Origin: Candidatus Nitronereus thalassa
GTDB lineage: Bacteria > Nitrospirota > Nitrospiria > Nitrospirales > UBA8639
Assembly (NCBI RefSeq): GCF_032191465.1
Contig: NZ_JAQOUE010000001.1
Coordinates: 2,108,001 to 2,172,000 of the forward strand
Direction of reading: 5' to 3'
DNA: 64,000 bases
Made by a program: the position numbers and the translations under genes. This document shows positions 13,219 to 58,943 of the stretch, one piece after another. The notes below the pieces were generated by a model. It searched no databases. It saw only the letters and a program-made list of their open reading frames with translations, and was not told the DNA's origin. The number at the start of each line of letters is the position of its first letter. Position 1 is the first letter of the stretch.

Positions 13219-13333
13219 AAAAAGGATTTTATTGTGGAAAGGATACTGTTTGTCGAGCTAATCCCCGTATCGAATTAAAGGGAAGGTTTATTTCGGGTGG
13301 GAAGGCTTTAACAACGGTTATCCAAAAAAACTT

Positions 13334-13402
13334 GTGCCGAAGCCGGGACTTGAACCCGGACGGGTTTCCCCACACGCCCCTCAAACGTGCGCGTCTGCCA
13401 TT
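13334..13402 (-). repeat. Truncated tRNA-Leu copy, putative attachment-site repeat
   Basis: 69 bases identical to 14166-14234 of the intact tRNA-Leu(GAG) gene, in the same orientation and exactly 832 bp away. It holds the 3' part of the tRNA but lacks the first 13 bases, so it cannot be a working tRNA. Position on the 3' side of the tRNA matches the geometry left by tRNA-targeted integration. Confidence 0.85.
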
Positions 13403-14001: not shown

Positions 14002-14163
14002 TCCCGCCTTCCTAGGTATTCAGGGTGGAAACACCCTACTATATCAAATTCAAAAGCAGAGGAAATGCTTGGGCATTATGAAAAGATTGTACAGATTGTC
14101 AGTTTTGACAGAAACCCTGGCAAACACATGGGTGGGGCGATTATTGGGAAGAGAAATGGAAAT

Positions 14164-14247
14164 TGGTGCCGAAGCCGGGACTTGAACCCGGACGGGTTTC
14201 CCCACACGCCCCTCAAACGTGCGCGTCTGCCATTCCGCCACTTCGGC
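14164..14247 (-). tRNA. tRNA-Leu (anticodon GAG)
   Basis: Acceptor stem GCCGAAG/CTTCGGC closes perfectly, the anticodon stem CACGT/GCGTG (with a final T-G pair) frames the loop TTGAGGG giving anticodon GAG, a long class II variable arm is present, the T loop reads TTCAAGT, and CCA is encoded. Its 3' 69 bases are repeated at 13334-13402, making it a likely integration target. Confidence 0.95.
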
Positions 14248-40664: not shown

Positions 40665-40673
40665 TAGGGAAGA

Positions 40674-51739: not shown

Positions 51740-51832
51740 GAGAACTGAGAGACCCGTCGAATTGTCATTTCGACCAAAGGGAGAAATCTGGTTTTAACCT
51801 TCGCAAAAATGGATTGGTTGAAATTTACCTTA

Positions 51833-52020
51833 GCAGGGTTTCGCCCCTGCAGACGAGGTCCTTTTGTTTCGGCAAAAGGACCCAAAACCATGTTCGCCCG
51901 TGCGTGGCCCTGCGGGTCCCTAGTCCACAGGATCGAATTAAATGGCTGCGCAACTCGCTCCGCTCAGACAATGCTCGCCAAAATGTTGAATTCGATCCTG
52001 CGGCCCAGCCACGCCCAAGG
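51833..52020 (+). repeat. Structured repeat family, copy A
   Basis: About 188 bp with four hairpin parts. HP1 GCAGGG/CCCTGC (51833-51850); HP2 GGTCCTTTTG/CAAAAGGACC (51857-51866/51873-51882, loop TTTCGG); a short CCCG/CGGG pair; HP3 CAGGATCGAATT/AATTCGATCCTG (51928-51939/51989-52000) enclosing ATGGCTGCGCAACTCGC. Same architecture at 53319 and, reversed, at 58718. It sits in a 371-bp gap between the AsmA-like gene and a hypothetical gene. Confidence 0.85.
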
Positions 52021-52110
52021 CAAGTTGATTTGGATTTTGAATATATATGGACTCTGTAAACACCTAATAAACGAGCTACTTCTGAATTTCTTTAAACAAA
52101 AAGGACTTTC

Positions 52111-52698
52111 ATGAACGAGCAAGAAGCCCTTCGTTCATTTACAACTCTCGGGGCAGTTATACTTGGCTTTTTACTTAGCCAAATATCTGAGTGGGTTAAA
52201 TCAAAGAGAAAGTCAGACAAAAAAAGACTAGCTATTCGAAGCCTTATCGAACTTGAAACAAAAAATAATATTTCTTACATATCAGAATTTTGGCAAAGTA
52301 TTTTGGCAAGCAAGGAAAAGTGGAATGATGAAGGAGGGGCCTTTCTATATGTACAACTCGCTGAACAAGCATCGAGGAAACCCTTTCCTCAATTAACAAC
52401 AGATGCATGGAAAGCTAATCTTGGAGAAATGCCAACAGTTTATTCACAAGTTGAATTAGAAAAACTTTGGAAACTCCAAAGAAATATTGAGCGGCTATTG
52501 TCATTGCACTACTTTTTTTGTGAAGCCAGAGAAGAAAAAATGGAAACTAGTCGTTTTTACAAAGGCCTAAATAAAAGTAGTGTGGGTATGATATTTAGTC
52601 AGCTAGGGTTTACGGATTCAGTGCTTGAACTTGCGAAAGAGTTTAAAAGTCTAAGTGAAACAATTCTCCTCTTTAACTTCAATGAAACAAAGTCTTAA
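52111..52698 (+). CDS. Hypothetical protein with N-terminal membrane segment
   Basis: 195 aa. A hydrophobic stretch (LGAVILGFLLSQISEW, about 13-28) probably anchors the protein, followed by a basic patch (KSKRKSDKKR) and a mostly helical cytoplasmic domain with many aromatics. Base composition is clearly A/T-richer than neighbouring genes, suggesting recent acquisition. AAAAGGA precedes the ATG. No family recognised; sits between two copies of the structured repeat. Confidence 0.65.
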   Translation: MNEQEALRSFTTLGAVILGFLLSQISEWVKSKRKSDKKRLAIRSLIELETKNNISYISEFWQSILASKEKWNDEGGAFLYVQLAEQASRKPFPQLTTDAWKANLGEMPTVYSQVELEKLWKLQRNIERLLSLHYFFCEAREEKMETSRFYKGLNKSSVGMIFSQLGFTDSVLELAKEFKSLSETILLFNFNETKS

Positions 52699-52855: not shown

Positions 52856-53266
52856 TCATGAAAACTGAATTCCAGTATCCTGGACCTCGCGGTAGGGGAG
52901 GAGCCAGACTAGGGATTCGTCGTGGAGGTCGCCGACTTGGATGCGGTTACCCCAGGGGTCGCGGAAATCGCAGCGGAAGTTGGGCTCCATTTTCAGGCCA
53001 TATTTGTTAACCAGTTTTTCTCGCACTTCGTTGATTTGGGCTTCGTCCCGGACCATGATGCCAAAGTGTTTCATGCGATCGGGCTGAAGTTTTTCCACTT
53101 CGAAGATCGCCAGGAATTGATGCTCGCCGAGTTTGCACCAGGCTGCTCCTTCTCCACCTTGTCGTAGCATTTCGAGATTAAACACATCTGAATAAAATTC
53201 CACCGCCTTCTGCACATCATCCACCTCAATCACCACATGATTGCAGCCATACACTTGAACCGCCAT
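52856..53266 (-). CDS. VOC-superfamily glyoxalase/dioxygenase-like protein
   Basis: 136 aa, two beta-alpha-beta-beta-beta modules in the order NHVVIEVDDVQKAVEFYSDVF and HFGIMVRDEAQINEVREKL, then RDPWGNRIQVGD. The His in the first module (NHVVI), the His in KHFGIMV and the acidic residue FEVE could form part of a metal site. Relatives include fosfomycin-resistance-like enzymes and dioxygenases; the substrate is not evident. AAAGGAG before the ATG supports the start. It lies just 5' of structured repeat copy B. Confidence 0.85.
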   Translation of the reverse strand: MAVQVYGCNHVVIEVDDVQKAVEFYSDVFNLEMLRQGGEGAAWCKLGEHQFLAIFEVEKLQPDRMKHFGIMVRDEAQINEVREKLVNKYGLKMEPNFRCDFRDPWGNRIQVGDLHDESLVWLLPYREVQDTGIQFS

Positions 53267-53318
53267 GTTTGAATCTCCTTTTTTTTATGTGTAATTCCCA
53301 ATTGTCATTTTTATTATA

Positions 53319-53510
53319 GCGGGGTTTCGCCCCCGCCGACGAGGTCCTTTTGTTTCGGCAAAAGGACCCAAAACCATTTTGCCCGTGCACGGCCCTTCGG
53401 GTAAACTCCGCCACGGTACCGAATTATATGGCTGCGCAACTCGCTTCGCTCAGAAAATACTCGCCATAGAAGTGGAATTCGGTACCGAGGCTCCGTCGCG
53501 CACAAGGGCA
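53319..53510 (+). repeat. Structured repeat family, copy B
   Basis: HP1 GCGGGG/CCCCGC (53319-53336), HP2 GGTCCTTTTG/CAAAAGGACC (53343-53352/53359-53368, loop TTTCGG), HP3 CGGTACCGAATT/AATTCGGTACCG (53414-53425/53476-53487) enclosing ATGGCTGCGCAACTCGC and GCCATA. The inner word is nearly identical to copy A, while the HP3 stem differs on both arms. It fills the gap between the divergent VOC gene and the muconolactone-isomerase-like gene. Confidence 0.88.
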
Positions 53511-53570
53511 TAGGATTAGGAAATATAAGCTGGAAGATTAAAATACTACAGAGAAAAAAGGGGAGAAATC

Positions 53571-58561: not shown

Positions 58562-58717
58562 GCAGGATAAGGAATTCACACTTTTTATTATGGAAGGAGA
58601 AAAAATGGCGGTACTTGTTACTCAACTTTGCTTGTTTCAACTTGAGAGCATAACTTCAGATCAACCTTAGCCGTTTCGCTGTCCGTTTGATTCACCTCTT
58701 ACTTCCATATTCCTCCC
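58562..58717. other. Short gap, no gene seen
   Basis: About 155 bp of non-coding DNA before structured repeat copy C; no clear promoter, hairpin or open frame with support. Confidence 0.4.
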
Positions 58718-58933
58718 CCGCTTTCGTACGCGGCGGAGCTGCGGTACCGAATTCGACTATTATGGCGAAGGCTGTTTGAGCGAAGAGGTGGATTTAAACC
58801 TCGAAGCGAGTTCCTGAGCCATCTAATTCGGGACCGTGGCGGAATCCACCCGTAGGGACGCGCACGGGTGGAAATGGTTTTGGACACTTTTGCCGAAACA
58901 AAAGTGTCTCGTCGCGCGGGGACGGAACCCCGC
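58718..58933 (-). repeat. Structured repeat family, copy C (inverted)
   Basis: In the opposite orientation to copies A and B. HP1 GCGGGG/CCCCGC (58916-58921/58928-58933); HP2 GACACTTTTG/CAAAAGTGTC (58883-58892/58899-58908, loop TTTCGG on the minus strand); a 7-bp CACCCGT/ACGGGTG stem; HP3 CGGTACCGAATT/AATTCGGGACCG (58742-58753/58825-58836, one mismatch). HP2 differs from A/B on both arms. Confidence 0.85.
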
Positions 58934-58943
58934 ATAAAAAATA

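Follow-up and report, generated by a model that had tools for sequence, protein, structure and literature searches.

Three folded repeats lying in intergenic gaps of the Candidatus Nitronereus thalassa genome raise the question of what kind of element they are: a structured RNA, a mobile repeat that does not encode its own enzyme, or a structure bound by a protein. They were noticed in a stretch of 64,000 nucleotides (contig NZ_JAQOUE010000001.1, positions 2,108,001 to 2,172,000; hereafter the window), whose relevant features are the following, all coordinates being those of the window.

51823-52023, + strand: repeat copy 1, about 200 nt, 206 bits with covariance model R1; H1 is its left, outer end
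51833-51850, + strand: hairpin H1 of copy 1, GCAGGG-TTTCGC-CCCTGC, with a T-rich tract just before it
51857-51882, + strand: hairpin H2 of copy 1, an 11-bp stem with TTTCGG at its apex, then CCAAAACCAT
51900-52016, + strand: main domain of copy 1, made of an outer stem, a mini-hairpin and a 12-bp inner stem
51900-51908 with 52008-52016, + strand: outer stem of copy 1, closing the main domain
51908-51916, + strand: mini-hairpin of copy 1, CCCTGCGGG
51928-51939 with 51989-52000, + strand: inner stem of copy 1, 12 bp
51952-51970, + strand: conserved apical sequence of copy 1, AACTCGCTCCGCTCAGACA, nearly invariant across the family
52111-52698, + strand: cargo gene, 195 aa, no Pfam or PADLOC match
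52856-53266, - strand: VOC/glyoxalase-superfamily gene, 136 aa, kept in the congener at 88% DNA identity
53309-53510, + strand: repeat copy 2, 196 bits with R1
58719-58943, - strand: repeat copy 3, 193 bits with R1, with an extra optional hairpin GAGGT...ACCTC in the apical loop

The original prediction held that the three copies share one order of parts and lie between genes, and both statements stood up to closer examination. Boundaries drawn by R1, a covariance model built from 24 copies of the window's own genome, agree within about 10 bases with those first proposed, and the gaps that contain the copies (51740-52110, 53267-53570 and 58562-58943) hold no other gene. The parts not listed at first are the outer stem, the T-rich tract before H1 and two optional extra hairpins. 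No Rfam 15 family matched at its gathering score at the window copies, nor in 12 loci from their own and other phyla.

Other repeats are also present in the window. Units resembling TCGTATCTCGTATTTCGT form another dispersed intergenic family (D2), with members at 40669, 44382, 45945, 46184, 48455, 49174, 59880 and 59918. In addition, 75 nt of the tRNA-Leu(GAG) gene (14164-14247) recur at 13328-13402, a distance of 832 bp, with 97% identity (second member, 14160-14247), which looks like an attachment-site duplication around a tiny insert.

Searching the window's own genome (G000; 4.0 Mb in two contigs) with R1 retrieved 69 matches, far beyond chance, so the family is clearly not confined to three copies. 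Two complete relatives, G012 and G017, yielded 19 and 95 matches, respectively. The repeat was found in 20 of the 41 genomes searched, all from the window's family, within which its distribution is patchy; 16 genomes from other families of the order gave no match with Infernal under stricter filters, and a search at the level of the phylum retrieved only fragments or weak matches outside the family. A pattern scan with the apical sequence recovered the same architecture of H1, H2 and long stem in at least Variovorax, Ralstonia, Herminiimonas, Haemophilus, Desulfuromonadales, Bacteroidota and a Nitrospirales MAG. In a 17-sequence alignment, mostly betaproteobacterial, many copies are seen by inspection to have a changed sequence in both arms of the inner stem. 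Plasmid and phage collections searched with the consensus gave no match, and the literature searched, with few subscription journals within reach, contained no paper describing the family.

Covariation in the fold is strong. In the alignment of 24 copies (A2), 24 of the 52 pairs of a hand-drawn structure were changed on both sides, where shuffling gave 14.7. The covariation score was 0.232 against 0.107, with none of 500 shuffles reaching the observed value. Sliding one arm by 1-3 columns lowered the share of paired cells in these copies from 87% to 38-48%. An alignment of 109 copies from several genomes, which was fitted to the model and is hence biased towards the structure, gave 38 pairs with double changes (24.0 in shuffles) and a score of 0.231 (0.102 in shuffles; 0/500). 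In the helix of the inner stem, double changes affect 13 of 18 pairs in A2 and 16 of 18 in alignment A5. H1 is paired in 97% of cells in A2 and shows double changes in 3/6 pairs there and in 6/6 in A5, and H2 is paired in 98.9% of cells. Single strands also folded better than all 200 dinucleotide shuffles, both as DNA (z = -3.7) and as RNA (z = -3.9). The stems thus covary, and with many copies and no Rfam or insertion-sequence match to account for them, the existence of a structured family is borne out.

The basal pairs of H2 switch jointly among a few types (GTCC/GGAC, GCAC/GTGC, TCAC/GTGA and TCCC/GGGA). They do so even in orthologous copies that are otherwise about 95-98% identical, for which short conversion tracts may be one explanation. 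The idea that both copies of one cassette share the same H2 stem type was rejected by eye.

Whether the fold acts as RNA is a separate matter. In well-paired columns read on the given strand we counted 55 G-U and 114 A-C cells, a difference that is not significant when counted per pair (sign test, p = 0.2); the excess of A-C, which by cells would lean towards the bottom strand, is absent by pairs and in the G017 alignment. Judged from sequence, the fold may act as DNA or as RNA, and these counts do not speak for an RNA of the sense strand. Of the suggested structured RNA, the fold is confirmed, and a sense-strand transcript has no direct support, G-U not being favoured over A-C.

The arrangement of copies along the chromosome is highly non-random. 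Among the 56 copies listed in G000, neighbours within 2.5 kb were convergent in 15 cases, tandem in 6 and divergent in none, while under random placement all such neighbours together came to about 2.1, and to no more than 7 in any of 500 trials; the convergent gaps span 0.6-1.9 kb. The loci fetched from the congener G001 comprised 12 convergent, 1 divergent and 11 tandem cases. Close convergent pairs also occur in Variovorax, Haemophilus, Herminiimonas and Methylophaga, and the pair in Luteimonas is divergent. In G017 the copies form long tandem arrays and are not mainly convergent pairs. Long same-orientation arrays of this genome (at C1:3430775-3462775 and 3631981-3646638) diverge from central segments with defence-like genes, among which a Vsr-like ORF was seen by eye. 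That the arrays diverge from an integrase gene was considered and rejected: the centres contain defence-like and other genes, and no integrase was seen there.

In G000, copies also tend to sit just past the ends of genes. With genes called crudely as longest ORFs, 34 of 39 copies in G000 have the 3' end of the closest H1-side ORF facing them, at a median distance of 78 bp, as do 28 of 40 in G001; by the same counts the preference is weak in G012 (10:7, or 10/17) and G017 (32:21, or 32/53), and the side opposite H1 in G000 has no clear orientation bias (20:17). Short dispersed repeats (CATTCCCGAC...TCGGGAATCCAG and GTCATTCTGAGCGGAGTGAAGAATCTC) often lie directly outside the H1 end, and some copies may have been inserted into them.

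A stable fold close behind the gene on the H1 side is what one would expect if the repeat worked as a structured RNA or 3'-UTR element, transcribed along with the upstream gene and shielding core genes and cargo from mutual transcription, with cargo turnover being ordinary replacement at permissive intergenic sites. Such an RNA predicts neither convergent pairs nor the clean insertion described below; G-U is not preferred on its strand, and by inspection no U-tract follows any hairpin there. We regard this explanation as decidedly unlikely.

Paired copies enclose one or two small, unrelated ORFs, and the flanks of these cassettes are mostly core genes. In G000 the cargo includes unknowns, MNT/HEPN and HepT, AbiU2, TIR, SNase, HNH and chlorite-dismutase-like proteins; G001 and G017 add ParE, BrnT, PemK, ORF6N, Uma2 and others, and several PADLOC candidate families occur among the cargo of the three genomes. 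When 29 cargo ORFs of G000 were compared mutually none was related to another, and their comparison with 75 ORFs of G001 and G017 gave a single weak HNH match. No transposase or recombinase was found among 25 of the 38 Pfam families listed for 57 cargo proteins.

We used the joined flanks of nine G000 cassettes as queries, and syntenic flanks were found in G001 for most. Where sequence could be read on both flanks, or at an adjoining contig end, the repeats were present in G001 and the cargo was different; at one locus (L047) the G001 repeats persist only as degraded pieces. Between pheT and rplT, for example, G000 carries ORFs of 156 and 186 aa and G001 one of 219 aa. The two genomes share the left repeat and the VOC gene of the window site, and the 195-aa gene of G000 is replaced in G001 by ORFs of 131 and 67 aa. 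The orthologue of copy 1 is 87.5% identical, compared with 76% for the upstream coding flank, and in the place of copy 2, beside the VOC gene, G001 has a copy in the opposite orientation. No copy was found in G001 at the site of copy 3, which is occupied there by a 207-aa ORF and an ORF resembling, by eye, an IS30-type transposase. The original prediction, right about the repeat family, had left out these convergent pairs bordering exchangeable genes, which are its main feature.

Cargo could have been replaced by homologous recombination between repeats. In its full form this explanation sees the copies as old, decayed elements that serve as a hot spot, at which incoming DNA carrying the same repeats recombines through RecA and swaps the cargo; the cargo is indeed bounded by repeats, and copies are about 80% alike and share a 30-bp near-invariant block. 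Crossovers of this kind should scatter across the cargo-proximal arm, whereas at the best-aligned sites orthologous identity carries on along that arm and reaches within a few bases of the repeat end. Pairwise alignment of eight orthologous copies showed identity spanning the repeat and ending a few bases from its inner end at most sites. Covariation of the fold would also not be required, and we find a recombination hot spot quite improbable. In 16 pairs taken as orthologous, identity exceeded that of random pairs significantly only in the inner 5' arm and the 3' arms, from which it follows that several of these pairs may not be true orthologues.

Single units do move. In genus g4, one copy of G012 (locus L175) is absent from G252, where the sequence GGCTTCAAT-CGACTTCTT-gccttg forms a clean empty site; with the copy present it becomes ...CGACATCTT, followed by a unit of 238 bp and then by CGACTTCTT-gccttg. 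The insertion is flanked by a target duplication of 9 bp with 8 of 9 positions matching, and simulation puts the probability of matching 8/9 or better at a fixed offset at about 1e-4. A second site (L442 compared with L446) shows GTGTCAAAT and GCGACAAAT, a possible and less certain duplication with 7 of 9 matching. Other sites lacking a copy, in genus g9, hold decayed remnants, and the G017 joined-flank search retrieved remnants and not clean sites. By inspection, no terminal inverted repeats were evident at the ends of the 238-bp unit.

Among the possibilities first raised, a mobile non-autonomous repeat is therefore the best supported, by the clean empty site with its 9-bp duplication and also by the 69-95 copies per genome, the patchy spread and the convergent pairs around changing cargo. 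On balance we lean towards reading the repeats as folded mobile elements that are non-autonomous, are served by a trans-acting enzyme and, as inverted pairs, form the borders of exchangeable cassettes. A unit of about 200-240 bp would fold as a single strand into two hairpins, H1 and H2, and a long stem of several parts that carries the conserved apical loop, and this folded strand would be what the enzyme recognises. Single units would insert by a staggered cut, often directly downstream of a gene, with H1 turned toward its 3' end, and two convergent units, with their H1 ends outermost, would act like the arms of a composite transposon around a small passenger cassette. The borders would then persist, and the genes between them would be replaced at or beside the inner end of the repeat, the cassettes probably moving or being exchanged as units. 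The enzyme, presumably a transposase-like protein, would be supplied in trans and not encoded in the cargo examined. Against a mobile element stand the single clean empty site found in all, the lack of evident terminal inverted repeats, the lack of a mobilising partner among the enzymes searched for, the weak gene-end preference in G012 and G017, the tandem arrays of G017 and the retention of some cargo, such as the VOC gene.

Y1/REP transposases, serine recombinases, reverse transcriptases and integron integrases were considered and rejected as required partners. The Y1 (HUH)/REP transposase profile PF01797 is absent in the repeat-rich genomes G000, G005, G012 and G017. Serine recombinases (PF00239) are absent in G005, G012, G021 and G226, and reverse transcriptases (PF00078) in G000, G012, G017 and G226, in each case four of six repeat-rich genomes. 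The integron integrase profile TIGR02249 scored above its cut-off only in G001, with three full-length matches (C39, C78 and C99), and in G007, which is free of the repeat; none was found above the cut-off in G000, G012 or G017. The IS110 transposase PF01548 is a different case, occurring in 5/6 repeat-rich genomes. No mobilising partner was identified with these profiles.

Directly upstream of one repeat copy in G000 is a gene for an IS110-type transposase (L059:472-2212, or C2:547471-549211). The 5' arm of H1 in this copy breaks off where the two meet, as though the insertion sequence had inserted into H1, and the only IS110 match of G017 also adjoins copies. Certain IS110 elements target palindromic repeats, and an IS110 end inside H1 is what such targeting would produce; from its sequence context, the G000 element looks like an invader of the repeat.

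The cargo and the arrays also call to mind an integron-like system, in which the repeat would be a folded single-strand recombination site analogous to attC and a host tyrosine recombinase would exchange the cassettes. Strong conservation of the fold with weak primary conservation in the stems, a site past the gene 3' end, varied cargo of one or two genes with many toxin-antitoxin and defence functions, and the same-orientation arrays of G017 are all in its favour. An attC site carries an RYYYAAC inverse core and a GTTRRRY core at its two ends (PMC3053210), whereas within 35 nt of the ends none of 109 copies had these boxes on either strand. The distribution of integrases given above does not follow that of the repeat, the G000 pairs are convergent and not tandem, and a 9-bp duplication is not in keeping with insertion by an integron; we therefore consider an integron-like site unlikely.

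A broader claim, that this is a new cassette-exchange system present in several phyla, in which a folded border recognised in trans keeps chromosomal docking sites open behind core genes, at their 3' ends, so that accessory and defence genes can be exchanged there, is put forward only tentatively, as we rate it rather doubtful. If the cassette reading is right, much of the small accessory and defence gene content of these bacteria would lie in repeat-bordered cassettes that current annotation leaves unmarked, with the same border in Proteobacteria and Bacteroidota. The borders would then offer a route to new defence and toxin genes, and would pose a defined question, namely which enzyme moves the cassettes.

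Set against known systems, the repeat is somewhat similar to REPINs and to integron cassettes, and lacks defining traits of both. Like REPIN/REP sequences with their RAYT (TnpA-REP), the units are non-autonomous folded repeats dispersed between genes, occurring in inverted pairs and carrying no enzyme inside; REPs are palindromes of 20-40 bp, whereas the present repeat is about 200 nt long with H1, H2 and a multi-branched stem, its pairs stand 0.4-2 kb apart around genes, and four repeat-rich genomes lack the Y1 transposase. With integron cassettes it shares a fold kept over sequence, one or two small and diverse genes, many of them toxin-antitoxin or defence-like, and arrays in G017, and it differs in lacking attC boxes, in not requiring the integrase, in its inverted pairs scattered over the chromosome and in the 9-bp duplication. 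MITEs and mobile insertion cassettes are likewise short non-autonomous units, with passenger genes between inverted ends and, as here in one case, a target duplication; the present repeat has no evident terminal inverted repeats and no recognised parent among the IS families, which were surveyed non-exhaustively, and it differs further in its covarying multi-hairpin fold and in cargo that is exchanged while the borders remain. Composite transposons, following the logic of Tn5 and Tn10, carry convergent repeats around their cargo, and the present pairs resemble them in being convergent, with identical outer ends around the cargo; here, however, the ends are 200-bp folded non-coding units and not insertion sequences.
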